Below are positions 6,735 through 48,200 of a stretch of 64,000 nt of DNA, in pieces. Source of the stretch: Polytrichum commune (taxonomy: Eukaryota > Streptophyta > Polytrichopsida > Polytrichales > Polytrichaceae); assembly GCA_950295325.1 (NCBI GenBank), contig OX485803.1, positions 7,626,001-7,690,000 on the forward strand. The letters run 5' to 3'. Numbering within the stretch: the first letter of the stretch is position 1; each line of letters opens with the position of its first letter. A program made the translations under genes and the position numbers. The notes beneath the pieces are model-generated. The model was not told where the DNA came from. It worked only from the letters and a program-made list of their open reading frames with translations, and ran no database searches.

Positions 6735-7234
6735 GGGTCACTTCACACACGATACTGAGAGCCCACGACCATTACACTTCAAGGACTCTAGTTGGTGGAA
6801 AAGGCGGAGCCGGTCCAAGTTCGATTCACACTACGCTCGGGGGCCAACAGAGTATGTGAATGCAAGATGGATGTAAAGTCTACATGGATTCCTACATGGC
6901 ATCGAATGGATCATGTTTCATGGTCACTTGGATTATTTCCAATGACCACCTCTTGGAGGTAGGCCTAATACAAAACCATTGGGAGACCATTATACTCCGA
7001 ATGCTCACAACCGTTGATTTATTCTATTTTATCATGTGTGAGGACCCGCATGAATAAAAATTCATTGAAATAGCATTCGGTTGAGGACCTGGTCACATAT
7101 GACTTCACACTACGCTTGAGGATCCGTGGGCACGCTACATGATTTGGAGGTGTCTTGGGGCAGCCTTTGGACACTTCCTTTTGAGCTCTCACAGTTTCAT
7201 GGTCACGGCTCTTGACTCGTGTGCGAAGTGGCCC
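6735..7234. mobile_element. PIF/Harbinger-type MITE with TAA duplication
   Basis: A 500-bp element whose left end is GGGTCACTTCACACACGA and whose right end is the inverted counterpart (GTGTGCGAAGTGGCCC). It is flanked on both sides by TAA (6732-6734 and 7235-7237). A 3-bp T-W-A target duplication is typical of the PIF/Harbinger superfamily. The interior matches, in inverted orientation, the larger element at 56718-57745. It is non-coding and shares its terminus GGGYCRCTTCACAC with 51589-52119 and 54122-54323. Confidence 0.65.
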
Positions 7235-7524
7235 TAAGTGTTCAATATATGGCCTATATACACAATTTCTACAAGTCCTGTCAACTGTTAAATATCATGT
7301 ATTTTATATTAATGGCTTTTAAATTGTTCTTTACTATTTCCCTCAATGTAAAGGACAAAACAGAATTTCGATTGTATATGACACTGGAATCTACAATACT
7401 AAGTAGGTACTGTACCCAATGGCATCCAAGATGTGTCTTTGAAGCCAGATTTTTGACAATGCACATGTATTTAACTGATTCGAAAAGTGTACATGAAAAT
7501 TGATTTAATTTTAGATAGTGTCAC

Positions 7525-7920: not shown

Positions 7921-10460
7921 TTATGGGGGGTCTGGATTTTGGGGGAGTGGTTGGTGGTTTTCAATTCTCCTCTTATGGAGGAGGATAGACATGGCATATT
8001 GTATTGCAATGGTGTTAATATTTTTGAACGTATTTTTTATGGTGGCCATGGGTATTTTGAAATTGGTCTCTAGTGCTTTCATAGATAGGATGTGGGCAAT
8101 AGCTTTAGCACCAGCTGTGATGACAATAAGTGGTTCGATTTTCCATCCTCTGGAAGCAATGCTAGCAATTAGTGGGTTGTATTTGTTATTTTTTGCTTCA
8201 ATTGCTTATGGGGAGAATATGTCATTGCAGTATGTGAATTCAATAAATTGTATGGTGAGGTTAGGGTCAATGTCGCTGGGAGGGACATTTTGATATGGTA
8301 ATTCCTTAACACAAAGGATGTCATGTCTAAATCTTGTGTTGCAGTGACATCTTTGTGTACTACATGTGCAGGGGAGTAGCCAGTTGGGGACTGTGTTTTC
8401 TTGGGGGTTGTTATTGAAGGTGCCAGCATTCATGAGAGTAAAGCATCGGGATTTTTCTGATGAGATTAGGAGTTTCCTAATTTCCCCAACTGCTTTGTTA
8501 TGTCTTTTAACTCTAAGTGAGTGTATATGTTGGTGTTTACATGTAAGTAGTACATGCAGCCATGTATCTGGTTCGTTTGAGTTGCATATGGGGCACGTAA
8601 TAGTGGGATATCTTTGGTGACCAAAGAACATTTGTTTCCTCGCATTACCCATGTAGGTTCCTGTGCGGAATTTGATGAGGCATGATTTTTGTTTGTCGGT
8701 GATAGCATGATTTGCCCAAAATTCGTTCGACAGCTCTTTGTCTATATCAACATTTTCTGTCCATTTACAAGTGTTGGGGGTTTGTGTGGCCATGATTGCT
8801 AGGTTTGTTTCCCTATCATATTTTTTAATTTGTTTTTCTAGGAATCTGACTGGGCCTTTGTCCGGAACGTCTTCCATCGAGGCCCATACGTCTTTTTGGT
8901 AGTAGTAAGGGGTGGCGTGGGCATGTTCGTATGAGTGAATGGCAATTTTGTGTTCTAATTCTAATCCTTCTTTTGCTAGTTTATCTGCTTTTTCATTGCC
9001 GTCAATGTTGACGTGTGCTCTAACTTTGTATAGTGTGATTGGTTGTGTCCGTTTTTGAAGGATTTTTACCATGGAGGCTAGTGTGGTTTGGTCTGGGTGA
9101 CTATTATGAAGTGTGGGATGTTAATTTGTGTGTTAAGTAGGTATAATACGTTTAGACTGTCTGTGAATATGAATGCGGGTTCGTTGGGATATTGTGTATT
9201 GATAATTCTTAGTGTTTCGTGTATAGCAATCATTTCTGCTCGTAATATATTTTGGTGTCCATGTAATCGATTGGCGATGTTTAGCCCTTTGGGGCTGTAG
9301 ATACCATATCCAGCTCTTTCTCTTCTCCATTCCCCGGGGGCTATTTCTTTGGGTTTCATAAACGAGCCATCAATGTAATAGCTGAATTGGGGGTGGAATT
9401 TTAGAGGTAGATTTGTCTGGTAGTTAGGGAGTTGTGGGATGGGGATGTTATTGTATAGGAGTATATTTGGGTAATTTGATTTAGACCATTTTTTACTAGA
9501 GTTCACGGTGATGTTTGAAGGGGTGGGTGGTGCAATTTGGGTGTGGCTTTGTAGTATTTGGATATTATCGGCTATGTCCTTTAGTAATTTCATTTGTTCA
9601 TAGGTGCCTATGTTACTGTTTTGGTGGTGGATACAGAATATTTGTAGGGTAGATGATTCTTTTCTTGTAATATTGAGTTCGGGGGGTATTGTGGGTTCTT
9701 CATATGTGATCGTGTCAGCGGCAAAGTGGGCAATGACGTGTGTGTCCAGGAAAGGACCTGTGTGCGGGTTAGAGTTTTTGTACCATTCGGTATCCGGGGA
9801 TATAAGTATAGTGATTGTATATGGGTCATTTTGGGCCGCCATGCGAGCCTAGTGAATGGCTTGTTGTAAGTTTGTTGCGTTGTGGGGGTGAGCGTATCCA
9901 ATTCCTTGCTATTTGTGGTCAAACGCTTTCCCTAGGGATCCAAATATTATGTCACGCGAGAATGGTGAGTAGAATTGGGTAATTGTGTGGGACATGTTAC
10001 TGGGGATGAAAAGTATGAATGGTTGATATTGAATGTTGTTATTAGGAGATCTAATATTGGGGTTGGTATTGTGTATTGGGCACGTTTGAGTGGGTCATTT
10101 TTTGGAATACGGTATTTGTATATTTGATATAACCAAACAATTTCAGTTTCGAAAAATTGGGTGGGTGGTTCTAGACTATGTGTGGTGTTTTTTGCCAATT
10201 GGTATTGTTTCCATAACCACATTAGTCTGGTTTTCGGGATGGTGATGAGGTGCCGACCATTGTCTTCGTATATGTGAGCGACATCAAATTGTATTTGGAT
10301 AGTGTCAGAGTTTGTTTCGATGTCATTTTCTGGGTTACATTCGTTACTAGAGATATGGGCTAGTGGGCTTATTGTGGTTGGTGTGACGTATCTCATGTCT
10401 CTTTGTTGTTCTGTGGAGAAGTAGGCATTAATAATGTTTGAAAAATGTTTGTGTTGTCTT
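7921..10460 (-). pseudogene. LINE copy 1 ORF2 3' part: PCIF1-like region, RNase H, CCHC, RLE-like domain
   Basis: Minus-strand pieces read, in order: 10396-9947, 9960-9850 (with two in-frame stops), 9842-9078, 9072-8206, and on past a TAA to the true end at 7921. The PCIF1-like block shows F-G-S-L-G-K-A-F-D and G-Y-A-H-P-H-N. RNase H keeps all four catalytic acids: D in Y-I-D-G-S, E in L-R-A-E-M, D in F-T-D-S, and D in G-N-E-K-A-D (after a frameshift). The CCHC knuckle (C-P-I-C ... W-L-H ... C) is intact, followed by the C-T-C-x4-C-H-C cluster. The R-P-D of copy 2 is R-H-D here. The C-terminal I-E-F-T-Y-C block is followed by a stop in place of a sense codon, then K-x-x-K-Y. Copy 2 gives the uninterrupted version of the same region. 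Confidence 0.75.
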
Positions 10461-10899
10461 TCCGTGTAGTAGTGGGTAAGTAGGTCGGTGTTCTAGTTAC
10501 ATGTGTTGGCGTCGCAGTAGGGGTATAAGTCTTTTGGAGTTCGCCATTTGTTGTATGTGTGATTATTTGTTGTAGCCCATTGACATAAGTATGACGTGAC
10601 TGTTCTTTTTATTCCGTTATGGTCGTTAGAATATTTTTGTTTGTGATCGAGTATTTTGTGTATGGAATATTATCGGGGGTCTTTAAGTATATTGTTGGGG
10701 GGAGGGGGTAGAGGGGGGATGGGAGGGTTTGGGGGTGTATGGGTGGAGTCGGTATGTGCGGTAGGATGTTGTGGTGTCTTATTATATATTTGTTTTTGAG
10801 GGATCTGGGTGGGTGGTATCGTGGGCATGGTAGGGGACATTCGTAGTTACAAGAAGGGTGGCAAAATAGTTGGTTAGCGATATTTAGTGCACTTTGGAT
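10461..10899 (-). pseudogene. LINE copy 1 ORF2, decayed RT-distal linker
   Basis: This stretch connects the RT thumb-like region to the PCIF1-like block. It keeps the A/C-rich sense composition. The lower part, up to about 10670, still aligns with the 5' end of copy 2 (47900-48187), but reading frames are short and broken. No domain is recognised. Confidence 0.45.
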
Positions 10900-12694
10900 G
10901 AATTTGGAGGGGGTGGAGTGGTAGATTTTGAATTATTCTTGGTTCATTAGTGTGGTGCCATTAGGCATGGTTATTTGGTCTAGTGTTGTTATATTATGTA
11001 TGAGAAATTTGTGTAATAATTTAAGTGATGTGTTGGGATTTAGACCTTGTAGCATTTGTGCTTCTTGCATCCACGCATTTCGAGTGGGGATGGGTGTAGT
11101 AGGAAGTTGTTAATTGTACTTTTTAGATGAACTCCGGCTTCATGCTTGAGCAAGAATAATGTTCTAGTGATAGGTGATCTAACACAGTGGTGGTATTTAA
11201 TACGGGAAATTTCTTTTAGAGCCCTCATATTTGGCAAGAATAAATTGCATTAGGCTACTATAGATTTTGCCGATTCGACCTTTATCATTAAGGGCGTTTT
11301 ATAGTTGTTCACCAATACATCTTAAGTAGGCATTTTGTAGTGAAAATGCTTCAATTCCGAATAGGTTGTATGGAAGTTGTGTAGCGATGTTAGATGTGCA
11401 TTTGGGTATTCTACAAATCGTTTTATGGAGTGCTATGATTTTTTTATCAAGTTTCTTAATAGCTGGTATGAAGTATGGTACTGCATAAAAACTATATGCT
11501 ATCCCAGTACGAATGACTGTATCTGCCATGTTGATTTTTTGTTTAATAGTAGCTGGGCATGTTACGAGGGCTTGACATTGTTTGATTACTTTAGCTGTAG
11601 TGGTATTTATTTGTGTTTTCCATTTAAGTGATGGTGCGAGGTTTATTCCTAGATATGTGTATGGTTCGTGTTGGTTTAGGGCTAGTATAGGTTGGTTTCT
11701 ATAATTTATGTTGGTGGCCTGGATTAGGCCTTGAAGGTTGTGGGGTTAAGTTTGGATTTGTTTGGGCATCCAGTCACTGCACATTTGGATATTCCGAGGT
11801 CCATTCCTGCCTATTCGCAGAATTTGTCTAGTTTATTTAGTTGTGTTTGTAGTGTCTCTAGTTTGTTGGCGATCGCGGCTAGGTCATATGCTGCTGATGA
11901 GATTTTAACTTTGGATGTACCAAAGGTATATCCATTGTTCTCATGTTGTAGTCATCTGAGGAGAGGGTTCTAAAAATATGATAAATAGATATGGGCTAAG
12001 GGTATCGCCTTGTATTGTACCTCTTTAAATGAGAATTGGTAAGGTTTTTCCAAAATGTTCTCCAGTAAATATGATTGAGGATTGTGAGTATATGTTTCCT
12101 TTGAGGTTTATGGAGTCATTAGGGTATCCTAGGTCTTTCATTATGGCTAGGAGTCGGGCGTGGTCAATGGAGCCAAAGGCGTTTTTGAAGTCAATGTAGA
12201 GAATGTATATATCTTGATTTGTGAGTCTTGCGTCTTCAAGTGCTGCGATTAGTATTTGGATTTATCTGGAAGTACTTCTTTCTGCTCTGAACCCTTCTTG
12301 GCTATCGTGTAGTATTTGGTATCTTTCGTCATACGCGGATAGGATGGAGGTTAATGTACTTGTGTAAAGTTTATATATTGTGTTAGCTAGTGCGATAGGC
12401 CTGTGATTTGTTAGTTGTGATGGGTTCCCTTTTTTATATAGTAAAACTGTTAGACTAGTTTTCCATGATGCGGGAATTTGTTTCTGTTTGTAGCAGTGTT
12501 TAAAAAATAGGAAGAGTAGTTTGTCGAAACGCGGAGGCAAATTGTTTAGGATTGAGTTGGGAATTTTGTCTGGACCTGGGGCTTTGTTATTACTTAGGTT
12601 TTTAAGACAGAGGTCGTAGGTTTCTTGGTCAAAGTACGTGTGTAAGGGGATTTGGGGTTCTCCTCGTTTGTCAATTGTGTATCCTTCTAAGTCA
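10900..12694 (-). pseudogene. LINE copy 1 reverse transcriptase, broken
   Basis: Minus-strand fragments give an RT of non-LTR type. In order: N-K-A-P-G-P-D-K-I-P (near 12580), H-R-P-I-A-L-A-N-T (near 12390), Q-E-G-F-R-A-x-R (near 12290), Y-I-D-F-K-N-A-F-G-S-I-D-H (near 12190), and a Q-G-D-x-L-S-P-Y-like segment (near 12000). The catalytic Y-A-D-D box near 11890 reads A-A-Y-D-L-A, as if two codons had been lost, and a stop lies a little further on. Beyond it, K-C-A-V-T-G-C and later K-I-I-A-L-H-K-T (11299-11529) fit the thumb region. The gene is dead. Confidence 0.75.
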
Positions 12695-14651
12695 TGCCAT
12701 GGATATCACAATCACTAAATCTAACTAATAATTCTAACCTATAGATTCAAAGCCCCAAGACTTGGAGACTCACCCCGGGATAAGTGTCGAAGTCGAAATT
12801 CCTAAATTAATTATCCATCTAAAAATTTAATGAGCTACCGATCTTCGGTTTCTTTTGATGTTCTTATCAAAACCCCAAGAAGGTGGCGAACGTACCTTCG
12901 CCGCACTCCTTCCTCAAAAATGAAATTGCATAATTGACAATGTAATTCATTCCAAGAAATTAATTGAAATACAACTACTCTAATAAAGTCAAATATAAAA
13001 CCCAAGATAGAAACTTACCGCACCTCGAGTGCTCCTTCCTCTCTCTCAAGTTCGTATCTCCACATTCTCCTACTTGCCTCTAAGTCTTCTAGTTGCCTCC
13101 AAGTCTTTTAACTACTACCCACTTCACTCCCGGCGGACGCACCATTTATGTGAGGCCAAATCCACCCCCCTTTAGCGTCCTAGTCCGGGTGATGACTTTG
13201 AGAATCACATGTGTCTATTACAACATTGAACCGTGTGCAAGGTAATTTTCATGTTCAAATGAACACATATTGTCTCATTCATTGTGTTTAATTAATGTTA
13301 GCCTCTTGGCTTGTGGTAGAGTTAGCTTTCTCAAGAGTCCAACCCGCAGCTTTAGCCACACATGTCCTTAAGGATATTCCCCTCACTCTTTTAATCTTCA
13401 CTTCTTTTTTTTCTGCCATTGCAAGAATCCTCCACATTCTCCATTGATTGTACACGTGAATTATGGTGACTTGAGAGTGTACAAGTGTTAAGAAACACTT
13501 TACTCCATAGTCAATGTTAAATACAATCACATGTGACTTCCACACACACATCGCCTATCCTATTGAGCTTAACACTTGTCTAGGAACTATTTTAATCTAC
13601 AAATGGTCTAAACCCCTCATGGCTAGTTTAGTGGCACCCCCTTCTTAATCTTAACCTTAGCTCGCTAAACCAGCCAACCGGCTAATTAACCTATCGGTCC
13701 AAATCTGGCCTATTTACCGGCAGTCCCTTGGTTAACCTGGAATCAACATCTAAGTTGGGTGCAGTTCGGCTGCCCAGCAGCAACTAAGTTGGGTGCAGTT
13801 CCAGCTGCCAGCAGCAACTAAGCTCGGTGTAGTCTCGGCTGCCCAGCAGCAACTAAGCTGGGTGCAGTTCCAGCTGCCAACAACAACGAAGCTCGGTGTA
13901 GTCTCGGCTGCCCAGCAGCAACTAAACTGGGTGCAGTTCCAGCTCCAAGCCGTGTTTAGGCAGATGTCTAATAAGTCCTAACAACTATTCTCAACCCCTA
14001 ATATTTAATCGAATATTCCTCTAGTCCCTTGACCAATGAATGAACACATCCCACTAATTTCACTAAACTAACCCCTAATCCTCCTAGGCAATCTCAAGCT
14101 CTAAGAGCTCACTCACTTGGGAGGCATTGAGAGAGAGAGAACTTAACTAATTAACTTTACGAAAAACTACTAACCCACACACGTGGCTCAAGCTCTTAAG
14201 AGCTTGCTCCCTTGAGAGCGCTTGATGGAGAGAGAGAAAAATAAGAGAGAAACCACCTTAAGTAGTAAAGAGGGAGAGAGGGAGAGAGAGGTAAGGATAG
14301 GGTGAGAAGATTAGCACCTCCAATGACAATCCCTTAACCTTCACCTCTAAAGTAGAGACTAATCCCCTTCCACCAAGCTTCCTTCTTCCTAAACTAACAA
14401 GGTGGATCCAAAAGTGGGCATTTAACCCGCGGAGCTCACCTTGCTTCACCTTACTCCATACTCACATTATCAAGGCATACTCTTATTGATTTCAACCGTA
14501 AAATAATCACACAAAACATTCTAATGCCTAAACTTAAATCCACACCACACTTCATTCTTTTTATGTTTTGTGAATAACATAACACCTCAAAGTCAAACAC
14601 GAATTGGGTTCGAAGTGTTAATCACCACATGTGGGCACCATTTTGGGTTCA
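12695..14651. mobile_element. Foreign 1.96-kb insert splitting the LINE, possibly a solo LTR
   Basis: The A/C-rich LINE sense composition and coding continuity stop abruptly at both edges and resume beyond them. Read on the minus strand the insert starts TGTGAACCCAAAATGG and ends ATATCCATGGCA, so it has TG...CA ends as LTRs do. No protein coding is seen inside. It holds a 34/35-bp tandem array (13748-13950) and GA-rich stretches. I could not find a matching 4-6-bp target duplication, and the exact ends are uncertain by a few bases. A non-autonomous element or other insert is equally possible. Confidence 0.4.
13748..13950. repeat. 34/35-bp tandem array with alternating unit types
   Basis: About six units start AACTAAGYTSGGTGYAG. 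Type A units carry GTTCCAGCTGCC and type B units carry GTCTCGGCTGCCC, and the two types alternate, giving a higher-order period near 70 bp. The array lies inside the insert that splits the LINE. Confidence 0.75.
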
Positions 14652-14653
14652 CA

Positions 14654-15370
14654 GCAGTGTAGTGGATGTGTATTTTGATGGTGGCATGTGGGGACTGTTG
14701 GGCGGTTACTGATAGATTGTTGCGCGTAAATTTCTGATGCAATGTCTTCAGGGTTAGTTAATATATAATTTTGTCTATCAATGATGGAATCAAGAGGTGA
14801 GGTTTCAGTGTTTTTGAAGACTTTACGGTTTTTTTTTTGGTTTTTTTTTCATACATTTGGCGGTATTTTGATACGGCTTTTAGAATGCAGTCTTTGGTAT
14901 ATTTTGTTGTGATTTTCTTGGCTGCTTTATTTGCAGTTTTTGCGATGGTTGCTATGGCATTAATCCATTCGGCAGAGGGTGGTATTATAGCAGGTGGATG
15001 TGGCATGTTGGTGATTTCGGATATCGTTGAGGATGGGATGTGTTAGCCAGTGTGGGTCATGTTGTGCTATGTATATGGTTTTCCTAATGAGGTGATATGT
15101 ATTGAGGTATCTTTCCCATTCTCTAGCTAGTTTGCGTGGAAGAAAACCACCTTGTTGTGATGTTCTGTTTGTAAGGCTAGGTAATGGGTCCGCTTTACAG
15201 GTTTTTTCAATTGTTTCTGAGATTTTGTTTACAATGTAATCCATTGATGTACAGGTTTCTTGTCATTGATCAGATGTTAAGTGTCGTGGGTTTTTTAGTA
15301 ATATGGTAAGTGCTTTTAATTGTGTAGAATTTTCTTCAAAGAATGTTATGTTGAATTTTTCTAGGTTTTT
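14654..15370 (-). pseudogene. LINE copy 1 ORF2, EN-RT linker
   Basis: Two overlapping minus-strand open stretches (15244-14960 and 15006-14758) sit between the endonuclease and the RT. They are basic and helical-looking, with A-R-E-W-E-R-Y-L-N-T-Y and K-K-T-K-K-K-T near their ends. They continue through N-P-E-D-I-A-S-E-I-Y-A up to the insert edge. This matches the usual linker before RT block 0 in LINEs. A frameshift near 15000 separates the pieces. Confidence 0.55.
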
Positions 15371-15400
15371 AAGTGGTATCGGGTTCAGTATTCTAGTTTG

Positions 15401-16620
15401 TTAGGTGTTTGTAGGGGGTGGGGGTCTCGCTATAAGTGTGTTGTGTAGGATGTGTAATATGACTGGGTAGTGGTCTGAATTTAGATTCATGTTTGTGTTT
15501 GTGGTAGAGATGAATTTGCTGTTGTCCGGGGAGTGAATGTAGAAGCCATCTATTAGGCTTGTTGATGTGTAATTATAGTGTGTATATGTGGTTAGGGTGT
15601 GTATTGATTTGGTGGTGATTTCGTTCTTAAGGTGTGGGATGAGACATGTGTCTTCTAAGTGTGTAGGCATATACATGTATATGATTAACCATGGTATTAG
15701 TGGATGGTTGTTTATTATTATTATTTGTAGATACGGGGAGATGTTTGCTGGCGTGGGAATTTTGGTGACATTTCCCGGGAATGCATATTTATTATGGATA
15801 AGTGTGAGTAGGCCACCTCTTCCGGGAGTATAAGGCATTCTTTGTTGAATGCACCTTGTGAGTGCGTGCGTGTTGTTAAAAATGAGTTTGAATTCTGGGA
15901 ATAGGTTTTGTATATATTTTATAGATTTGTTTGCAGTAAGTTTGGTTTCTTGGATATGTATGATTGCCGTGTTATTTAGATAATTATTTATTAGGCTTTG
16001 TAAATTTGGTAATGATATGTTGATTGATGATGCGTTCCATGTTATTATGTTAGTTTCGTGCTCGGTGTTGAAATAGATTCTTGCGATTGGTGTGGGAGCG
16101 GCTGGGAGTGGGGGTGGGTGTGAGTATTCGTCAATGTTTTCTAAACATCTAAGTACTTCGGTTATCAACTGGTTTGGGAGGAAAGGGAATTCTTTCTTGA
16201 GGGTGATTGATGTGGGTGTGGTTACTTGGTTGTGGATGAATTCGTATATTTTTGTATGTATTGAGTTATGAGGGAGTATTATATTTTTATTGTTTTCTAT
16301 AAATGTTGTGTAGGGGTGCGGTGTCAGTATGTGTCGCTCGGGGGGGTTTGCGAGGTTAGCTAGTCTAATGATTAATGTGTTGGTCCATATGTTATTAAAG
16401 TGGTAGTTTTGGGGTTGGGCTAGTATGTTATTGCATGTGTCTATTGAGGGATGGATGGTAATGATTAGGGCGTATAGCATATGGGTTGGTGGTGATTGAT
16501 TTTGTGTTTGGGTATATTGGTGTAGATGTGGGTATGTAGTGATTGCTTGGGGGTGTAGTGGGTGTGTGTGTTTTAGTATAGGGGCGAATGTATTTGCTAT
16601 GTGTTGGTATTCAGGTTGTA
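15401..16620 (-). pseudogene. LINE copy 1 APE-type endonuclease, internally deleted
   Basis: A 359-residue open stretch (first Met at 16480) whose frame is open upstream to about 16650. Endonuclease/exonuclease/phosphatase motifs: T-W-N-A (Asn149), I-Q-E-T-K (Glu178), G-R-G-G-L (about 220), I-Y-M-Y-M-P (about 267), S-L-I-D-G-F (Asp311) and L-N-S-D-H-Y-P (Asp336-His337). The G-D-F-N block expected between I-Y-M-Y-M-P and S-L-I-D-G is missing, and the spacing there is too short, so an internal deletion around residue 297 is likely. Its role in the family is to nick target DNA and prime reverse transcription. The stop at 15401 cuts it from the linker. Confidence 0.75.
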
Positions 16621-18824
16621 GTTTTATAGTATTTGGAATAAAATATGTGTTGGTTTTTTTTTTTTTTTGTAGCAGGGTGTGTACGTAGGATATTAGGCAT
16701 TGGTCCAGGGTTGAGTTCGATGTCCCCGCATTTTACCAGATCTAGTTTATTAATGAAGTAGTATCCGTAAAATTGCAATGTTTTTGGTTTTCTCATATTT
16801 ATTTTAAGGTATTTTATGTAAGTGAATTTGGTTGTAGTAAAGAGGTTAGGCATAGCGGGTATGATTTTTTCTACTAATTTGTGTGGGAAGTATGACGTTG
16901 CATTATTTGTAGGTAGCGGGTTTGTTACTGAGTTAGGCTTCCATTTGTTTATGAGGTGGTATGTGTCGTTGTTTGTGTGGCGAGGCCGGTAGATCGAGGC
17001 CGTTTTGTTTAGTGGGTAGGGTTTATATTTTGAGTAAGGGTAGTTATATTTTTGGTGAGGTTCGTATTTAGGGAGTAGGTGGTGTTTTGAGTGGGGGTAA
17101 GGTGTGGGGTTTGGATGCAAATTGTTTGTAGGGTGAAGCTTGTGAGATTTTGGGTTGGATTGGGTTTCTTGTTTTGGATGAGAACTATACACTGGTTGGT
17201 ATTTGTGTTTTGAATATATTTTGGTTTTTGGATGCATTTTGTGTTTTAGATGGATTCTATAATTTGGATGAAGCTTGTCTCGTGGATGAAGATTGTGTTT
17301 TGGATAAGGGTTATATCTTGGATGAGAATTGTATTGTGGGTGGGGCCGGGGTATTTTTTGTTTTGGGTGGGTATCATGTTGTGGGGCGGGTGTTATATTT
17401 CCTACTTGGTTGGGTAAAGGGCGTGTTTTGATTGCTTTTTGGTTTTTTATGCGTACGGTTTTAGTTGTGGTGATCGGGTAGGGTAGGGTGTGTGTATTGT
17501 TGCTTGGTTGTTTAGGTGTGAGAGGAGAGTTAGGTTTTGGTTGTGTTTTTTGTTTTGGATGTAGGCTATGCTTTGGATGTGATTTGAGTTTAGAGTGAAG
17601 TCCATTTCTTGGGAAGTACCTATATTGTGAGAGAAGCCGGTGTATTTTGAGTTTTGGATGAGTGGTAAGTTTTGGATGTGTAGTGTATTTTGTTTGGGGA
17701 TTGTATTTAGGGTGGTTGTTAGTGTAGTTTGGTTCATTTATAAGTTGTATACTTGATGTATTTGAGGTAGTAGGGGGGTATCTATATAGGTTATTTGTTT
17801 TTGGTTTTGTCGTACTTGGTTTTTGGTTTTTAATGAGTGCTAGTTTTGTTGTAGAAGAAATGTGGTGTAGGGTGGGTGTTATGTTTTGTTGTTGTTTGGG
17901 TACGGGGTGTGAGTTCGCATAGTATTTAGGCATTTGATTTGTCCTTAAGGTAGGATTCCAATTGGTGAGGTGGTTTTTGCGGTTGGTTTTGTGGCAAGGC
18001 CGGTAGGCCGAGGCCATTTTGTTTGTTGGGTATTGTTTGTATTTTGAGTGGGGGTTGGGTTGTGAGTGGGGGTAAAGTATGTGTTTTGGGCGGGGTTTGT
18101 GTTTAGGATGTAATTTATTTTTTTGGTATGTCTTTGGGTTAGGATAGGTTCCTTGTTCATGGTGTGGGTTATGTTTTGGATGGGATATGTGTTTTGAGTA
18201 AGTTATGTGCTTTGGATGAGATCCGTGTCTTGGGTGAAAGTAGTTTGTTGGATGTGATATGTGTTTTGGGTATTTTACGTATTTCGGGGTGTGTGTAGTG
18301 TTACTTGATTGTTTAGATGTGAGGGGGGGATTTAGTTTTGGGTGTGGTCTTTGTTTTGGATGTAGATTATGTTTTAGATGCGGTTTGGATATAGGATGAA
18401 GTTCGTTTCTTGGGAGGTACCTATATTGTGAGTGAAGCCGGTGTATTTTGTATTTTGGATGGGAGGTATAATTTGGATGTATGGTGTATTTTGTTCGGGG
18501 AGTATGTTTTGGGTGGTTGTTGTTGTGTGGGTGGTTAGTGTAATTTGGTTTATTTATAATTTTTTTAATTATATTTGATGTACTTGAGGTAGAGGGGTAG
18601 TGTCTTTGTAGGTTAATTGTTCTTGATTTTTGATATTTAATGAGTGTGAGTTTTGTTGTAGAAGAAGTTTGATGTAGGGTGGGTATTATGTTTTCTTTTT
18701 GTTTGGTTGAGGGGTGTGCGCTCACATAGTATTTAGATATTTGATTTGTTATTGAGGTAGGTTCCCAATTAGTGGGGTGGTATTTGCGGTTAGTTTTGTG
18801 GCGAGGCCGGTAGGCCGAGGCCAT
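16611..18824 (-). CDS. LINE ORF2 N-terminal His-Pro-Lys repeat region ending in a 2A motif
   Basis: A 737-residue open frame, extremely rich in His, Pro, Lys, Asn, Thr and Tyr and almost free of acidic residues. Short units such as H-P-K-H-N and L-H-P-K-Q recur dozens of times. On a larger scale there are three diverged units, each starting M/T-A-S-x-Y-R-P-x-H: residues 1-269, 270-607 and 608 to about 680. The same frame-like signal continues upstream to about 19200 after a stop near 18915, so the first Met used here may not be the natural start. Residues 694-708 read L-D-L-V-K-C-G-D-I-E-L-N-P-G-P, a canonical 2A. 29 residues later the frame ends just past a 15-A run; a one-base change in that run would continue into the endonuclease. 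Likely a basic nucleic-acid-binding leader, by inference from charge only. Confidence 0.7.
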   Translation of the reverse strand: MASAYRPRHKTNRKYHPTNWEPTSITNQISKYYVSAHPSTKQKENIIPTLHQTSSTTKLTLIKYQKSRTINLQRHYPSTSSTSNIIKKIINKPNYTNHPHNNNHPKHTPRTKYTIHPNYTSHPKYKIHRLHSQYRYLPRNELHPISKPHLKHNLHPKQRPHPKLNPPLTSKQSSNTTHTPKYVKYPKHISHPTNYFHPRHGSHPKHITYSKHISHPKHNPHHEQGTYPNPKTYQKNKLHPKHKPRPKHILYPHSQPNPHSKYKQYPTNKMASAYRPCHKTNRKNHLTNWNPTLRTNQMPKYYANSHPVPKQQQNITPTLHHISSTTKLALIKNQKPSTTKPKTNNLYRYPPTTSNTSSIQLINEPNYTNNHPKYNPQTKYTTHPKLTTHPKLKIHRLLSQYRYFPRNGLHSKLKSHPKHSLHPKQKTQPKPNSPLTPKQPSNNTHTLPYPITTTKTVRIKNQKAIKTRPLPNQVGNITPAPQHDTHPKQKIPRPHPQYNSHPRYNPYPKHNLHPRDKLHPNYRIHLKHKMHPKTKIYSKHKYQPVYSSHPKQETQSNPKSHKLHPTNNLHPNPTPYPHSKHHLLPKYEPHQKYNYPYSKYKPYPLNKTASIYRPRHTNNDTYHLINKWKPNSVTNPLPTNNATSYFPHKLVEKIIPAMPNLFTTTKFTYIKYLKINMRKPKTLQFYGYYFINKLDLVKCGDIELNPGPMPNILRTHPATKKKKNQHIFYSKYYKTTT
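16654..16668 (-). other. 15-A homopolymer at the 2A/endonuclease frame switch
   Basis: Fifteen consecutive T on the plus strand (A in the sense strand). The His-Pro-Lys/2A frame and the endonuclease frame differ by one here. The endonuclease frame is open from this run onward. Confidence 0.8.
16701..16745 (-). other. 2A ribosome-skipping motif
   Basis: The sense codons give L-D-L-V-K-C-G-D-I-E-L-N-P-G-P, with the final Pro at 16701-16703. This fits the 2A consensus D-[VI]-E-x-N-P-G|P with the usual upstream hydrophobic stretch and Cys-Gly. In 2A, the ribosome fails to form the Gly-Pro bond and continues, giving two proteins from one frame. The location, just before the endonuclease, is where 2A sits in some animal and trypanosome LINEs. 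Confidence 0.85.
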
Positions 18825-19468
18825 TTTGTTTGTTGAGTATTGTTTGTACTTTGAGTGGGGGTTGGGTTGTGAGTGGGGGTAAGGTATGGGTTTTGGATGG
18901 GGGTGGTGTTTAATTAGGATGTAATTTCTTTTGTTGGGATGTCTTTAGGTTAGGGTGGGTTTTTTGTTTATGGTGTGGGTTGTGTTTTGGACGAGGTGTG
19001 TGTTTTGAGTAAAGTGTGTATTTCGGGTGGAATCTATGTCTTGATTGAAAGTAGTTCGGTGGATGACGTATGTGTTTTGGATACTTTCCGTACTTCGTAT
19101 GAAGGTTGCTTGTTGGGTGGGGGTTGTGCTCTAGGTGGTAATTATATTTTGGGTGAAGATGGGGTACTTTGTACTTTGTATGTATACTGTATTTTATACT
19201 GATACTGTATTCTATATGATATTTTTGTATGGAAGGTATATGTATTCTGGTATATGTATTGGGTGAGTGGTTTGTTGGGGCATATCGTATTGGAGTAGAT
19301 GTGAGGTATGTTCATATTTTGTATAAGTTTTTTGACATCGTATGCTACTTTGTATGAAACTAAGGTATAGTATGTTTATTCTAGTATGTATTTGTATTCT
19401 ACTATATACTTCTACGTATTTAGGGTAGTATTGTAGTAAATACTTTTTTTTTGCTTGGCAGTTTGTGG
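18825..19468 (-). pseudogene. LINE copy 1 ORF2 start region, broken
   Basis: A GTGA overlap at 19469-19472 joins the end of ORF1 (TGA) to a frame that runs to 19212 with no ATG at its beginning. From about 19200 to 18915 another frame reads H-P-K-Y and H-P-H-P-T-type repeats, the same style as the large His-Pro-Lys frame. I infer that ORF2 originally began near the end of ORF1 and ran through here. The true initiation codon cannot be decided. Confidence 0.4.
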
Positions 19469-21358
19469 TCACTCCACATTTGGTTGGTCTTTAAGCATGA
19501 GGTTTGGGTTTACCAATCCCGTAATTTGTTGCATCCCGGTAAGTGCCAAGGTCAAAGTGCTTTGGATGTCCAACATTTGCTTTTTTAGTTTATCGTTTAT
19601 TTCATCCGCATAGATGTGTGCCTCTCTTACTATATCATCCTTTAAGTCCTTCATGTCTTTGTGAAATTCAATTTTAAGTTTCTTGTTGCCTTCTTCAATT
19701 GCCTCCTTCATGACGGTGAAAACGTCCTCCTTTGTTGCACTAGTCTCCTCTTGGGTTTGGTTTTGGATGGCTTCGATTGTGTTTACCAAACACGTATTAG
19801 TATCTTCAAAACCAAATTTGACTAGTAATTCTTTGGTGGGTTTGTCGATACCGTCAAGGCTTCGGAGGTGTGGGGTAATTTCCACATGATAGGCTCCAAT
19901 TTTTGCTTCTTTCCCTACAAACTTCCTATACACAAAGGGGTTAAGGCATTCCACATTAGCACTACCATTGTGTCTCAAGCCATCTTGCTTGTGGAACCAA
20001 ATGGATACAACATTTTTGGTTCCTAATACTTTGCAAATTTCAAGGGAGGTATCCTCAATATTCATCAAGATGGGGAGGTTGTAGAAGGTTAGGGTAAGAG
20101 CCTCTTTCTTTGCCTTTTGCTCCAAAGTAAGAGAGGGACCCTTTGTCACTTGACCTTCTAGTATTTGGTGATGTGTAGATACTTGGAGTTTTTGGATTTT
20201 TTGGGCTTGGTGGGGGGTAGGAGCAACAATGTAAGCATGGTTGTTAGTGGTGCTCTTTTGTACCTCTACAATCTCGAAATTATGGCCTCTCCTAAAGCTA
20301 TTCTCTAGGATATCTAGAAAAAGAGCATGAGATGATATACCAATCAATGTGTCGTTTGAGATTTTGATGGAGAGGTTGTTGCTTCTAGCAATGGAGTGAT
20401 ATGACTTACATACCTTGCCAAGACTTCCAACGTTTGAGTGGGGCTCAAGGTGGAGGATAAAGGGTCTAAGACCCGTGAGTAGTGCTACTCCATCAACTTG
20501 GGGATGGAGGAGGTGGAGTTTGACTATCCCAGCCCAAACTCCCTTAATCCCACCCCTCTTGATACTCATGCAAAGAATTGAGATGGGTTCTATAAGTTTA
20601 GTGCCTAATGAGATATGCATATCATTTAGCCTTTCCTTGACAAGCTCTTTCACATGATTATGGAAGAGGGGGTTGTTGGGGAGCTGAAAATGAATGGCTA
20701 TTTGAAAATCTAGAGACATGCATGAGATAGGGTCAATTTCTATCTCAGACGGTAGTTGAGTAAGATTAAGATGTTGCCCCGGGAATCCATCACTCCTTTT
20801 ACTAGGGTACAGTATTTGTGGCACTCTAGGGTAGGAGATGCTTACACTTTCTAGCTCTTCAGCATCTTTGCGGGGGATGCCTCTTGTAACTTTGTCATTG
20901 ATGGTTTCGTCCATGTATAACTCATCTAATCCCTGGTCCATGGCAAGTTTTTCCATAACATCAAACCCAAGCCACATTTTAAGTGGTTGTTCAGAGGTGG
21001 GTACCGTGGCTTGGACCGCTTTCGGTGGTGACGGTAGGTGTGGAGAAGCTACTGCTGGGTCCCGACTTCTCTTCCCGCTCGCTGCCCCCTTGGGTGGAAT
21101 TTTGGCCTTTTCTGCCAACAGTTTTTTGAGACTCTGGGCAGGGGAGTCTATCTCCATCACATCGTCTTCTGCACCGAAAACTTTTGCCAGGGCCATGGGG
21201 ATTAGGCTCCCGCTTGCTGTACTCTCGTTTCGGTGTAAGGTTTTCGGCATTGGTGTCAAGTTTGGGTTTCGGTGTAGACTGCTACGGGATTCGGTGTAGT
21301 GGTGTCGTCGTTGTGGATCGCTGGCACTTCTGATGTTTTTGCTTTTTTTTTTTCCCAA
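19469..21358 (-). CDS. LINE ORF1 protein, RRM-like with C-terminal coiled coil
   Basis: An intact 629-residue frame starting M-G-K-K-K-S-K. Residues 1-120 are basic, Ser/Pro-rich and probably disordered. Residues about 418-497 look like an RNA-recognition-motif fold: L-T-L-T-F-Y-N-L-P in the RNP2 position and G-S-A-N-V-E-C-L-N in the RNP1 position. An earlier block (about 265-315, around I-L-C-M-S-I-K and G-V-W-A-G-I-V-K-L) may be another domain. Residues about 540-605 are highly charged heptad-like helix (coiled coil). There is no CCHC knuckle. ORF1 proteins of LINEs bind their own RNA as multimers. The frame overlaps the ORF2 region by the tetranucleotide GTGA. Its sense strand lacks the strong A/C bias of ORF2. 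It is the only large ORF of this copy without a lesion. Confidence 0.75.
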   Translation of the reverse strand: MGKKKSKNIRSASDPQRRHHYTESRSSLHRNPNLTPMPKTLHRNESTASGSLIPMALAKVFGAEDDVMEIDSPAQSLKKLLAEKAKIPPKGAASGKRSRDPAVASPHLPSPPKAVQATVPTSEQPLKMWLGFDVMEKLAMDQGLDELYMDETINDKVTRGIPRKDAEELESVSISYPRVPQILYPSKRSDGFPGQHLNLTQLPSEIEIDPISCMSLDFQIAIHFQLPNNPLFHNHVKELVKERLNDMHISLGTKLIEPISILCMSIKRGGIKGVWAGIVKLHLLHPQVDGVALLTGLRPFILHLEPHSNVGSLGKVCKSYHSIARSNNLSIKISNDTLIGISSHALFLDILENSFRRGHNFEIVEVQKSTTNNHAYIVAPTPHQAQKIQKLQVSTHHQILEGQVTKGPSLTLEQKAKKEALTLTFYNLPILMNIEDTSLEICKVLGTKNVVSIWFHKQDGLRHNGSANVECLNPFVYRKFVGKEAKIGAYHVEITPHLRSLDGIDKPTKELLVKFGFEDTNTCLVNTIEAIQNQTQEETSATKEDVFTVMKEAIEEGNKKLKIEFHKDMKDLKDDIVREAHIYADEINDKLKKQMLDIQSTLTLALTGMQQITGLVNPNLMLKDQPNVE

Positions 21359-21424
21359 TCTCCAACTCCCGGCTCCCCTCCTTTTCGGTGTAGTCTAGTC
21401 TTGATGTAGGCTGGGGCTGGTTTC

Positions 21425-21608
21425 GAAAACAGGTCCTCGTCTTCGCCGAAAACAGATCCTCGCCTTCGCCGAAAACAGGTCCTTACCTTCGCCGAAAACA
21501 GGTCCTCCCCTTCATCGAAAACAGGTCCTCGCCATCTCCGAAAACAGGTCCTCGCCTTCGCCGAAAACAGGTCCTCGTCTTCACCGAAAACATGTCCTCG
21601 CCTTCGCC
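21425..21608 (-). repeat. 23-bp tandem array in the LINE 5' UTR
   Basis: Eight units of exactly 23 bp start GAAAACAGGTCCTCG on the plus strand (first bases at 21425, 21448, 21471, 21494, 21517, 21540, 21563 and 21586). The period is not a multiple of three, so the open frame across it (21902-21483) is incidental. The array lies 67 bp upstream of the ORF1 start codon. Repeated 5' UTR units act as promoter monomers in some mammalian L1s; a similar role here is inference. Confidence 0.85.
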
Positions 21609-22376
21609 GTGGGCTCCGAAACCAGCTCGGTGAAGATCTGTTTCGCTACCGGCTTGGTTACTTTTCTGTCGATGCAGCTGGTTCCTTTTCTTGTTGTGGG
21701 CTCGGTCTCTGTAAACTCGATCGAGTTGGTGTAGATGTCTGTACCGGGTCGCTACAGGGGGATCGGACTTGATATGTGGCCTCCGTAGGTGTGATTTTGG
21801 ATCTGCTGTCCATATACCTATACTAGATAGAGGGAGTAGAGAGAGTGATACTGCAATGTGTATGGCAAGGAGAAGGAGCCTATGGCTCCCTCTGTATGTC
21901 ATTCTATCTATTTGTCTGGAGAGTGATCCTGGATCGGTGCCGCGACTGTGAGTAACGGTGTGTTTGTGTCCTTGGTGCTACGTTTCCTCACAAAATGTGA
22001 TGCTTCGGTTACAGATCTAAAGTCTACAAGCAGGGAGATGAAGTTTTCTAACACATTGTAACCAATCAAGGCCCCAGCTCATCAGAATGCCCTAATCTTG
22101 AGATCTCGACTCTTACTCACACATACTTCAAACTTTAGATCTAGTACCAAGCATACACATGTACCCCTTCCAACACATTCAAGCACCTTTCCAAACACAC
22201 TGACCTAACTGTTACTCTGATGTGTGCGGGGTGACTGCAAGTCCAGCTCCAGGCAGCGCACACATCCTCTACAGCGGCTAACTCCTCAGTCACTCACCTC
22301 TCCAGGAAATACGGAGCTCTCAGCAGCTCTTCATCCTTTCCGCCCCTCTTCGTTGTGAAAACTACTTAACCAAACC
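21609..22376 (-). promoter_or_regulatory. LINE 5' UTR, distal part
   Basis: 768 bp from the 5' end of the element to the 23-bp array, with higher GC than the flanks. The sense strand begins GGTTTGGTTAAGTAG directly at the target-site duplication. LINE promoters are internal, so this segment plus the array should hold it. No TATA-like or other defined site is claimed. There is no supported ORF. Confidence 0.55.
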
Positions 22377-27544: not shown

Positions 27545-27768
27545 TGTGACATTTCCTTAGCCAATGTTGGCATTCATTCTTTCGTAATCCTAATTATCTA
27601 TTGGTTGGTGGATATTTGGGGTTGCTATGGTAGTTGTGTGTCTATTGGTAGTGGTTTGTGACAGTTCCTTAGCAAGTGTTGGCATTTATTCTTTCGTAAT
27701 CCTAATTATTTATTGGTTGGTGGATATTTGGGGTCGCTATGGTAGTTGTGTGTCTATTGGTAGTGGTT
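27545..27768. repeat. 111-bp tandem duplication next to LINE scrap
   Basis: The block running from GTGACATTTCCTTAGCCA to TCTATTGGTAGTGG occurs twice in direct orientation (about 27545-27655 and 27656-27768) with few mismatches. It abuts the LINE copy 4 3' fragment and may be its duplicated 3' UTR. Confidence 0.7.
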
Positions 27769-27769
27769 C

Positions 27770-28060
27770 ATTGTTTTCTATCCTCCTTTTGTATAGAATT
27801 ATGGACATAGGATGTTGTATGATGATGACGTTGATTGCCTCAAATGTGTGTTTGATGCTTAACTTAGGGATTTTGAATGTTGTTTCAATACTTTCCATAG
27901 AAGGAATGTATGTGGCTGCCCTAGCACTTGTTGTGATTAGTAGTGGGTCTACCTTCCAACCTCTGTTGATAACATTGTTTATTAGTGGTTTGTATTTGTC
28001 TATTATTCGGATTATAGTTTCATCTGGTATTCTATCATCACATGTGACCTACATATATGC
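27770..28060 (-). pseudogene. LINE copy 4, ORF2 C-terminal fragment
   Basis: The minus strand encodes D-K-Y-K-P-L-I-N-N followed by R-G-W-K-V-D-P-L-L-I-T and, later, I-P-S-M-E-S. This matches the last about 85 residues of ORF2 in copies 1 and 2 (K-Y-K-P-L-I-D-S, R-G-W-K-I-E-P-L-I-V-I-T, I-P-S-M-K). It is more diverged than those copies are from each other and truncated upstream at about 28060. Confidence 0.65.
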
Positions 28061-38581: not shown

Positions 38582-38593
38582 TTTTTCATTCAA
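38582..38593. repeat. 12-bp target-site duplication of LINE copy 3
   Basis: TTTTTCATTCAA, repeated exactly at 39397-39408 on the other side of the LINE fragment. Confidence 0.8.
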
Positions 38594-39236
38594 CGACAGA
38601 GATACATGGCCCCACTTACTATCCACGCGTGAACACCCATACCTAAAAGGCTTAAGAATAGCTCGCCATAATAAAGCGGTACACCTCATCACCAAAACAC
38701 TACAAGCCAACAAACACACCTGATTCTACACACTAACAAATGCAGGAAATCTCAACAACATGAACCAAGAACAAACAATCCCATAATGGCTCATAAAATG
38801 TACATGCCCACAAACAATTTGCCAATGCCAAGCCAAATTAAGACTGGATATCCTAAGTATACTAGGCGCCCCAAACCACACACCAACACCTTTACTACCA
38901 TCCCACACACACATAATACAATTCATTGAATTCACATATTGCCATGACAAATTTCCCGAGCAAGCCCTCATGCACAAACACACCATATACGACCCATTAA
39001 TTAACAACATACAAAATCAAGGATGGAAAACGAACCCCCTCATCACTATCACAGCTGGCGTTCGAGGAGCTATACACGAACAATCCATTAACAAGCTAAC
39101 CAACCTTAAAATCCCAAAGTCCAACATCAAAACCCTCATGAAAAATATACACCAAAATGCCATTAAATATCTTACCTACCTCGTTCTCAACAAAAGAAAA
39201 CTTGAAAATAAACAAGCTACTATCACACCTCCCTAA
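38594..39236 (+). pseudogene. LINE copy 3 ORF2 C-terminus (RLE-like domain)
   Basis: Frames read D-R-D-T-W-P-H-L-L, G-L-R-I-A-R-H-N-K-A-V, then C-T-C-P-Q-T-I-C-Q-C and R-L-D-I-L, then I-I-Q-F-I-E-F-T-Y-C-H-D, Y-D-P-L-I-N-N and G-W-K-T-N-P-L-I-T-I-T-A-G. The same order occurs in copy 2, including the double C-x-C cluster. One in-frame stop and at least two frame changes (near 38720 and 38970) break it. The stop of the family ORF2 is at 39234-39236. Confidence 0.7.
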
Positions 39237-44036: not shown

Positions 44037-44039
44037 TTA

Positions 44040-44556: not shown

Positions 44557-44559
44557 TTA

Positions 44560-45413: not shown

Positions 45414-47711
45414 TTATGGAGGGTCTAAGTTTTGGGGGAGCGGTTGGTGGTTTTCAATTCTCCTCTTATGGAGGATGGACATGGCATATTGTATTGCAAT
45501 GGTATTAATGTTTTTAAAGGTATTTTTGATGGTAACCAGTGGTATTTTGAGATTTTCTTCTAGTATTTTCATAGATGGGATGTGGGCCGTAGCTCGGGCC
45601 CCAGCCGTGATGACAATAAGTGGTTCGATTTTCCATCCTCTGGAAGCGATACTATCAATCAAAGGTTTGTATTTGTTGTTTTTTGCTTCTATTGTTTCTG
45701 GGGAAAATCTGTCGTTACAATATGTGAATTCAATAAATTGTATGATGAGGTTAGGGCCAATGTCAATGGGAGGGTCATTTTGATATGGTAATCCTTTAAC
45801 GCAGAGTATATCAGGTCGAAATCTTGCGTTGCAATGACATCTTTGTGTGTTACATGTGCAGGGGAGTAGCCAATTGGGGACTGTATTTTCTTGGGGGTTA
45901 TTATTGAAGGTACCGGCATTCATGAGAGTAAAACATCGGGATTTTTCGGACGAGATTAGAAGCTTCCTAATTTCTCCGACTGCTTTGTTATGTCTTTTAA
46001 TTCGTAGTGAGTGTATATGTTGTTGGTTGCATTTCAGTAGAACATGTAGCCAAGTGTCTGGATCGTTTGAATTGCATGTAGGGCATGTGATAGAGGGGTG
46101 CCTCTGGTGACCGAAGAACATTTGTTTTCTAGCATTACCCATGTATGTTCCTGTGTGGAATTTAATAAGGCAAGATTTTTGTTTGTCTGTGATTAAGGGA
46201 TTTGTCCATAATTCGTTGGACAGTTCTTTGTCAATGTCTATATTTTCTGTCCATTTACACGTGTTGGGGGTTTGTGTGGCCATGATTGCTATATTGGTTT
46301 CCCTATCATATTTTTTAATTTGTTTTTCTAAGAATCTTACTGGGCCTTTGTCTGGGACGTCTGCCATCGAGGCCCAGACGTCCTTTTGGTAATAGTACGG
46401 GATAGCGTGGGCATGTTCGTATGGGTGGATGGCAATTATGTGTTCTAATTCTAACCCGTCTTTTGCTAGTTTATCCGCTTTTTCATTACCGTCAATGTTG
46501 ATGTGTGCTCTGACTTTGTATAGTGTGATTGGTTGTGTACGGTCTTGGAGGATTTTTATCATGGAGTTGAGTGTGGTTTGGTCGGGGTGACTATTATGGA
46601 GAGTGGGGTGTTTAATTTGTGTGTTGAGTAGGTATAATACGTTTAGACTGTCTGTGAATATGAATGCGGGTTCATTAGGGAATTTTGTATTGATGATTCT
46701 TAGTGTTTTATGTATAGCCATCATTTTTGCACGTAGTATGTTTTGATGGCCATGGAGTCTTTTGGCGATATTTAAGCCTTTGGGGCTATAGATACCGTAT
46801 CCAGCTTTTTCTCTTCTCCATACCCCAGGGGCAATTTCTTTGGGTTTTATAAAGGATCCGTCTGTGTAGTAGCTAAATTGGGGGTGGAATTTTAGCGGTA
46901 AGTTAGTTTGGTAGTTTGGAAGTTGTGGGGTAGGGGTATTATTGTGTGGGATTGTATTTGGGTAGTTTGATTTGACCCATTTTTTACTAGGGTTAACGGT
47001 GATGTTTGGTGGGGTGGGTGGTGCAATTTGTGTGTGACTTTGTAGTATTTGGAGGTTATTTGCTGTATCGTTTATTAATTTCATTTGTTCGTAGGTGCCT
47101 ATGTTATTGTTTTGGTGATGGATACAAAATATTTGCATGGCAGATGGTTCTTTTCCTGTGATATTGAGCTCAGGGGGTATTATGGGTTTCTCATACGTGA
47201 TCGTATCAACGGCGAAATGGGCAATGACGTGTGTGTCTGGGAATGGGCATGTGTATGGGTTGGAGTTTTGGTACCAATTAGTATCCGGAGATATAAGTAT
47301 AGTGATTGTATATGGATCATTTTGGGCCGCTATGCGCGCCCAGTGAATAGTTTGTTGTAGGTCTGTTGTATTATGAAGGTGTACGTAACCGATTCCTTGC
47401 CATTTATGGTCAAACGCTTTACCTAGGGATCCAAATATTATGTTTCGCGAGAATGGTGAGTAGAATTGGGTGAATTGTGTGGGACATGTAACTGGGGATG
47501 AAAAATATGAGTGGTTAATATTGAATGTTGTAATCAGAAGATCTAATATTTGGGTTGGTATTGTATATTGGGCTCGTTTAAGTGGGTCATTTTTTGGGAT
47601 ACGGTATTTGTACCTTTGGTATAACCAAACAATTTCAGTTTCAAACGATTGGGTAGATGGTTCTAGACCGTGTGTGTTGTTTTTGCCAATTGGTATTGTT
47701 TCCATAGCCAT
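45414..47711 (-). CDS. LINE copy 2 ORF2 C-terminal half: PCIF1-like, RNase H, CCHC, RLE-like
   Basis: A 765-residue open frame. Residues about 52-200 resemble the PCIF1/CAPAM methyltransferase core: F-S-S-P (70-73), F-G-S-x-G (93-97), P-D-T-N-W-Y (142-147) and a closing M-Q-I-F-C-I-H-H strand. Where PCIF1 has N-P-P-F this frame has H-L-H-N (111-114). RNase H spans about 278-420: Asp284, Asp354 and Asp413 are present, but the catalytic Glu is Lys329. CCHC: Cys543, Cys546, His556, Cys561. A C-x-C-x4-C-x-C cluster (618-627) precedes R-P-D (632-634); then I-E-F-T (Glu661), Lys677 and K-Y (680-681), the pattern of restriction-like endonucleases. The frame is truncated upstream, where a frameshift near 47700 joins it to a further 470 bp of ORF2. 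Confidence 0.75.
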   Translation of the reverse strand: MAMETIPIGKNNTHGLEPSTQSFETEIVWLYQRYKYRIPKNDPLKRAQYTIPTQILDLLITTFNINHSYFSSPVTCPTQFTQFYSPFSRNIIFGSLGKAFDHKWQGIGYVHLHNTTDLQQTIHWARIAAQNDPYTITILISPDTNWYQNSNPYTCPFPDTHVIAHFAVDTITYEKPIIPPELNITGKEPSAMQIFCIHHQNNNIGTYEQMKLINDTANNLQILQSHTQIAPPTPPNITVNPSKKWVKSNYPNTIPHNNTPTPQLPNYQTNLPLKFHPQFSYYTDGSFIKPKEIAPGVWRREKAGYGIYSPKGLNIAKRLHGHQNILRAKMMAIHKTLRIINTKFPNEPAFIFTDSLNVLYLLNTQIKHPTLHNSHPDQTTLNSMIKILQDRTQPITLYKVRAHINIDGNEKADKLAKDGLELEHIIAIHPYEHAHAIPYYYQKDVWASMADVPDKGPVRFLEKQIKKYDRETNIAIMATQTPNTCKWTENIDIDKELSNELWTNPLITDKQKSCLIKFHTGTYMGNARKQMFFGHQRHPSITCPTCNSNDPDTWLHVLLKCNQQHIHSLRIKRHNKAVGEIRKLLISSEKSRCFTLMNAGTFNNNPQENTVPNWLLPCTCNTQRCHCNARFRPDILCVKGLPYQNDPPIDIGPNLIIQFIEFTYCNDRFSPETIEAKNNKYKPLIDSIASRGWKIEPLIVITAGARATAHIPSMKILEENLKIPLVTIKNTFKNINTIAIQYAMSILHKRRIENHQPLPQNLDPP

Positions 47712-48187
47712 GCTACTCTAGCTTTCGGGATGGTAATGAGGTGTCGGCCATTGTCTTCGTATATGTGAGCGACATCAAATTGTGTTTGGATGGTATCAGA
47801 GTTTGTTTCGATGTCGTTTTTTGGGTTGCATTCATTAATAGATATATGTGCTAGTGGAATTATTGTGGTTGGTGTGACGTATCTTGTGTCTCTATGTTGT
47901 TTCTTGTGGAGAAGTAGGCATTAATTATGTTTAAAAATGTTTGTGTTGTCTTTCTTTGTAGTAATGGATAAGTAGGTCTGTGTTGTGATTACATGTGTTG
48001 GCTTCACAGTAGGGGTATAGGTCCCTTTGAGTTCGCCATTTGTTATATGTGTTGTTATTTGTTGTAGTCCATTGACATAAGTACGACGTGACTGTTCTTT
48101 TTATTCCGTTATGGTCATTGGATTGTTTTTGTTTATGATCGATTATTTTGTGTATGGGGAATTGTCGGGGGTCTTTAAGCATGTTGA
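47712..48187 (-). pseudogene. LINE copy 2 ORF2, upstream broken segment
   Basis: The minus strand shows R-Y-V-T-P-T-T-I-I-P-L-A-H-I-S and H-I-Y-E-D-N-G-R-H-L-I-T-I-P, matching 10396-10200 of copy 1. Frameshifts near 47690 and 47910 and stops interrupt it. Homology with copy 1 ends at about 48187, the truncation point. Confidence 0.6.
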
Positions 48188-48200
48188 TATATTATTCAAA
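48188..48200. repeat. 13-bp target-site duplication, 5' side of LINE copy 2
   Basis: TATATTATTCAAA; see 44959-44971. Confidence 0.7.

Follow-up and report, generated by a model that had tools for sequence, protein, structure and literature searches.

The window, by which we mean the whole 64-kb stretch of DNA analysed here, encodes a peptide that raises the question of whether a LINE in what looks like a plant genome separates its proteins by StopGo/2A ribosome skipping. This peptide, LDLVKCGDIELNPGP, is read from minus-strand codons near the end of a 777-aa open frame (Table 1) and contains an exact 2A core. A preliminary description, made from the sequence alone, had reported a 2A motif here, and its coordinates proved exact, on the minus strand. 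The DNA pattern for DxExNPGP has a single exact match in the window (16702–16724, minus) and none in any of 100 dinucleotide-preserving shuffles of it. When up to two mismatches were allowed and the second codon was held to NTN, the same site was the sole match in the window, and one match was reached in 11 of 100 shuffles. The upstream context reads LVKCG, with V instead of L at −8, and a Met codon directly follows the last Pro. We file the peptide, with high confidence, as a putative StopGo/2A. The locus as a whole is very probably a decayed copy of a dual-endonuclease LINE family that uses StopGo/2A ribosome skipping, a step that we infer from the sequences.

Table 1. Positions of the candidate 2A, the surrounding element and related copies in the window.
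Feature	Position	Strand	Basis
Putative 2A peptide LDLVKCGDIELNPGP	16701..16745	minus	translation and exact pattern match
777-aa open frame: His/Pro/Lys-rich, three SAYRPRH-type blocks, ends in 2A and a short out-of-frame tail	16611..18944	minus	translation, alignment
Two ~0.8-kb tandem units, 79.5% identical	17486..19097	minus	self-blastn
641-aa open frame just upstream of the LINE	19469..21394	minus	possibly ORF1
A15 run shifting the frame between 2A and endonuclease	16654..16668	minus	sequence; P0068 aligns in frame -3 before, -1 after
Linker and APE endonuclease, degraded	15143..16663	minus	77% identical to P0068
~1.9-kb insertion between endonuclease-RT linker and RT	12706..14623	not assigned	P0114 split match
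Reverse transcriptase and thumb, frames broken	10825..12705	minus	P0161 residues 573-1201, 51% identical
PCIF1-like, RNase H, CCHC and restriction-like endonuclease part, frames broken	7921..10694	minus	Pfam, relatives
Second copy, 5'-truncated	45414..48191	minus	86.6% identical to 7921-10694; Pfam; fold matches
Related-element remnant (RLE part)	38592..39236	plus	43-47% identical to P0001/P0002/P0004
Related-element remnant (RLE part)	27737..28048	minus	49-53% identical to P0002/P0004

The motif had been described as following a basic repeat region and preceding an endonuclease. Both neighbors are present, with His/Pro/Lys-rich repeats upstream and an APE endonuclease downstream, but in the window copy the endonuclease lies out of the 2A frame. 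The 777-aa frame is rich in His, Pro, Lys, and Asn, and the region ahead of the 2A has stretches of an 18-nt, six-codon repeat as well as two large tandem units (17486–18286 and 18287–19097). A block running from SAYRPRH to TTTK occurs three times, and the last alone continues into GYYFINKLDLVKCGDIELNPGP. Farther upstream, the 641-aa frame on the same strand had one Pfam match, below the cut-off, and its single-sequence structure model was uninformative (mean pLDDT 35). It may have a C-terminal helix, and a 23-nt tandem repeat lies beyond it at 21424–21609; possibly, the frame is an ORF1 and the repeat represents 5′ repeats of the element.

The window copy itself is dead or dying. Its reading frame shifts 33 bases after the 2A; in the endonuclease, a gap of 53 alignment columns relative to the protein P0068 removes the GDFN motif, and the aligned stretch contains two stop codons; an insertion splits the match to P0114 (residues 1–454 match 15838–14624 and residues 458–704 match 12705–11965); and the 3′ frames are broken. 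A free EN-RT polyprotein made from this copy, as proposed in the preliminary description, is thus not supported, and we regard the copy as a fossil of a mechanism still kept by its relatives. As the endonuclease is in another frame, we considered a programmed frameshift at the A15 run and rejected it: P0068 and other relatives continue in one frame across this point, and the copy carries other lesions. The run is possibly a homopolymer error of the assembly. None of the three further copies and remnants in the 64 kb includes the 2A part. The second copy retains a 767-aa open frame (45414–47717, minus) with the PCIF1-like, RNase H, CCHC, and RLE parts. The two close copies (at 7921 and 45414) are similar only up to the polyprotein stop codon, and hence seem to have hardly any 3′ untranslated part.

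Whether the 2A matters to the family was judged from relatives, which are predicted proteins from ENA or JGI contigs; all conservation tests were made at the protein level. A first search with the C-terminal 138 residues of the 777-aa frame returned 11 proteins, and all 11 have NPGP in the same place, one with Q for E. A wider search with a four-sequence profile returned 139 proteins; 120 among the matches listed, plus one earlier match, gave the 121 relatives used here (P0067–P0187). Three extra rows of proteins kept by another row were dropped before counting: one spurious row for P0080 and, for P0103 and P0105, the rows of their upstream octapeptides. Neither a viral contig collection nor a collection of bacterial and archaeal genome contigs yielded a confirmed relative.

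The place of the 2A is reached by 59 of the 121 relatives among the matches listed, and in all 59 the octapeptide is present, intact or worn. The remaining 62 start downstream, with too few residues ahead of the match, and no relative among the 121 from the matches listed spans the place without an octapeptide. One frame runs through the motif with at least 100 aa on either side in 29 of the 59. An exact fit to the core (D/G/C/N)(V/I)ExNPGP, as given by PMC12846837 (PMC numbers here and below refer to excerpts of those papers), was found in 44 relatives, and three more have H in place of E (p14=H), a variant with >95% activity in a published assay (PMC12846837). Taken together, 47 of 59 have a core of the active type. 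The other 12 carry one to three substitutions each (P17 is affected in five, G18 in three, and D, I, E, or the final P in single cases), and in eight of them the change is at P17 or G18 and would be expected to abolish skipping; we read these 12 as decayed copies. Active-type cores are spread across the family, with at least one in 25 of 32 clusters at 80% identity, 13 of 16 at 70%, seven of nine at 60%, and three of four at 50%; the two clusters lacking one at 60% are single sequences.

The preliminary description had proposed that the motif be checked for conservation against neighboring codons in other genomic copies. We ran this check on the relatives rather than on copies from one genome, and the motif held up. 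Over the 59 rows, the seven fixed 2A columns have a mean entropy of 0.30 bits, in contrast to 1.48 bits for 94 flanking columns, not counting the upstream LL and G (p = 2e-4 overall, 2e-5 for the upstream and 0.002 for the downstream columns), and the x position has 2.50 bits. The fixed columns come close to the endonuclease motifs, whose columns range over all rows from 0 to 0.2 bits for GDFN and from 0 to 0.32 bits for QETKL. For the pattern of seven fixed positions with the fourth free, the 2A takes first place among 681 alignment segments compared. A quick tree was made with columns from the endonuclease side alone, of which 54 of the 59 rows had enough; on it, parsimony counts 25 changes at x, the most of 50 columns counted, versus 2, 3, 1, 0, 5, 3, and 1 at the seven fixed positions and an average of 10.5 at the other 42. 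Fixed positions held while x is free is the signature of selection for a 2A.

In the upstream context, LL occupies −9/−8 in 53 of 59 relatives, and C or S followed by G occupies −6/−5 in 52. This resembles the L-rich (A/S/C)G upstream classes of active 2A (PMC12846837), a likeness of context rather than a scored motif match. Since −10 changed 20 times and the two Leu positions twice each, the upstream context seems constrained too. What lies farther upstream is far less uniform: in P0129 some 65 residues separate the 2A from the predicted start, and a second octapeptide lies 159, 140, and 44 residues ahead of the 2A in P0103, P0105, and P0139, respectively, so the first product appears to vary greatly while the 2A stays. 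Two octapeptides per frame suggest that each of these three frames would yield three products. We also considered a membrane-anchored upstream product and rejected it; the N-terminus in question is common to only three proteins (P0103, P0105, and P0069), and its hydrophobicity is modest.

With the octapeptide in the same place in every relative that reaches it, its functional positions held and its x free, skipping ahead of the endonuclease is the best reading. The strongest competitor, though an unlikely one, is that an ordinary protein segment, such as the start of an endonuclease linker domain, is conserved here and that no skipping occurs at the octapeptide. Three downstream positions, L at +8, H at +11, and F at +23, are as invariant as the core, and +8 and +11 never changed on the tree, so part of the conservation could belong to the protein. 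Against this reading, the positions that stay fixed are those of a 2A and x is the most changed column; the L-rich (C/S)G residues upstream match classes known to be active; among 15 changes away from ExNPGP, three replace E by H, the known active variant (PMC12846837); and three relatives have second octapeptides farther upstream.

Less probable still is that the motif is inherited but disused, with the enzyme made by internal initiation or re-initiation at the Met right after it. Such initiation is conceivable, since the window and 47 of 59 relatives have this Met, and reinitiation or coupling has been described for the LINEs SART1 and LINE-1 (PMC5972666). Against this, the Met is replaced by R, K, I, or L in 12 of 59, including the P0129 group, several of which retain the full core, and seven fixed positions should not persist in a motif out of use. 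A chance match in a low-complexity reading frame, which the repetitiveness of the region and the decay of the copy might invite, is rejected as next to impossible in view of the empty shuffles and the recurrence of the octapeptide in all 59 relatives.

The element that carries the candidate 2A is assembled from overlapping pieces, which give the order APE endonuclease, R2-like RT, PCIF1/CAPAM-like domain, RNase H, CCHC finger, and R2-type restriction-like endonuclease (RLE). P0129 and P0105 join the 2A to the APE; P0161 runs from the APE through the RT to the thumb; and P0004 runs from the thumb through the PCIF1-like domain and RNase H to the RLE. P0068, P0161, and P0004 are collinear on the minus strand of the window, and the presence of APE and RLE in one element is a composite of these pieces, with no single intact protein among them. 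Pfam matches at E ≤ 0.01 were obtained for Exo_endo_phos in six of 11 relatives of alignment A1 and for RNase H (PF00075) in 25 of 27 members of alignment A2. By sequence, the nearest structures to the RT of P0161 are R2 (E 2.7e-32 for R2 chain 9nl2), compared with E 4.8e-16 for 8c8j, presumably human LINE-1 ORF2p; these are pairwise scores against single structures. By layout the element would be Dualen-type. The label "plant LINE ORF2" in the preliminary description was too ordinary, since APE-RT-PCIF1-like-RNase H-RLE is the layout of Dualen/RandI.

The PCIF1/CAPAM-like domain lies between RT and RNase H (45414–47717, minus; alignment A2). NPPF is the catalytic motif of PCIF1/CAPAM cap methyltransferases. 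It was not found in the LINE domain, and 17 of 22 covering A2 rows have AHPH where it would be expected. Searching the PDB with the PCIF1-like part by phmmer brought up a single weak match, to Niban 2 (E 0.61), so the link to CAPAM rests on Pfam and fold. A 1174-aa protein from a 2.3-Mb contig, P0066, aligns at about 20% identity over the PCIF1-like, RNase H, CCHC, and RLE parts, and a Pfam search of it returned no family; our guess is that it belongs to an algal dual-endonuclease element.

An intact element of the preferred kind, with skipping ahead of the endonuclease, would be translated as one long frame. The nascent chain ...LLxCGDIExNPG|P would stall the ribosome via the exit tunnel, the Gly-Pro bond would not form, and the upstream His/Pro/Lys/Asn-rich low-complexity protein, ending in NPG, would be released. 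The same ribosome would then resume from Pro and make the enzyme polyprotein (APE, RT, PCIF1-like, RNase H, CCHC, and RLE). Release after NPG with continued synthesis from Pro is the StopGo mechanism (PMC12846837; PMC5972666), and 2A functions in N. benthamiana (PMC4981915). In this way the element would obtain its enzyme separately from an accessory or structural product, with no need for a protease, stop codon, or further start, and no intact member would be split otherwise; we infer both the skipping and its efficiency. Separation may serve retrotransposition, for example by freeing the enzyme from a protein that, from its composition, looks basic and RNA-binding-like. The division into a His-Pro-Lys protein and an enzyme polyprotein that had been suggested for this locus is thus supported at the level of the family (59 of 59, with 47 active-type) and not for the window copy.

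Elsewhere in the window there is one DUF688 gene (59742–61481; Pfam, E 5e-10, above the cut-off), of a family that we take to be plant-specific; on this one gene we regard the host as probably a land plant. A transposase fragment with a DDE_1 domain (PF03184, E 1.8e-17) lies at 40370–41107 on the minus strand. A near-perfect hairpin at 44034–44562 (261-nt arms, 98% complementary, 7-nt loop) is either a foldback element or an assembly palindrome. A 179-nt tandem repeat is present in three copies at 57055–57712, with a related stretch at 6733–7236 and diverged relatives elsewhere in the window.

On balance, we lean toward the view that land plants host a diverse and old Dualen-type LINE lineage that natively uses 2A, in some members twice, to obtain two or three proteins per frame. 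In plant biotechnology, 2A is a foreign viral tool. If our reading is true, a native retrotransposon 2A means that StopGo has been encountered by plant ribosomes over a long time, and native 2As become candidate plant-tuned 2A sequences. It would also be a natural use of 2A in plants, in contrast to plant viruses, for which excerpts of PMC12846837 give no evidence of StopGo and judge six matches to be likely host misclassifications. The dual-endonuclease group would, moreover, reach outside the algae, and its polyprotein here would include a PCIF1/CAPAM-like domain that has been captured and catalytically altered. In the part of the literature searched, we found neither a land-plant LINE with a 2A nor a land-plant Dualen; plant cases may be covered by Rao 2025 in particular, on 2A in cellular and viral proteomes, or by Odon 2013, Luke 2014, or Kojima and Fujiwara 2005.

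Among known systems, the place of the putative 2A is most readily compared with that in L1Tc of Trypanosoma cruzi and in animal APE-type LINEs, whose StopGo/2A sequences were reportedly described by Heras in 2006 and Odon in 2013 (cited in PMC5972666, PMC4981915, and PMC12846837). In L1Tc the 2A is ahead of the APE endonuclease. The likeness is an in-frame 2A near the N-terminus of the enzyme polyprotein, ahead of APE; the differences are that the element here has two endonucleases and an R2-like RT, that its host looks like a land plant, and that two octapeptides occur in each of three relatives. The element described here also differs from R2-type retrotransposons, which lack an APE, an RNase H, and a PCIF1-like domain.

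Dualen/RandI LINEs, said to have been described by Kojima and Fujiwara in 2005, share with our element the combination of APE and RLE, plus RNase H. In excerpts of PMC4640811, Dualen encodes both APE and RLE, and RNase H is given for Dualen/RandI; the 2A and the PCIF1-like domain found here go unmentioned for Dualen in that text. The host also appears to differ, lying outside the green algae and cryptophytes of the literature: RandI is placed under green algae (PMC3747384), Dualen/RandI is said in one excerpt to be found only in green algae (PMC4438587), Dualen is reported in cryptophytes in another (PMC12747079), and plant LINEs are said to fall into L1 and RTE (PMC11288735). Dualen has been taken as a link between RLE and APE LINEs (PMC4640811, excerpt), and with a putative 2A in this layout, whether the 2A of LINEs is ancestral or was gained repeatedly becomes testable.
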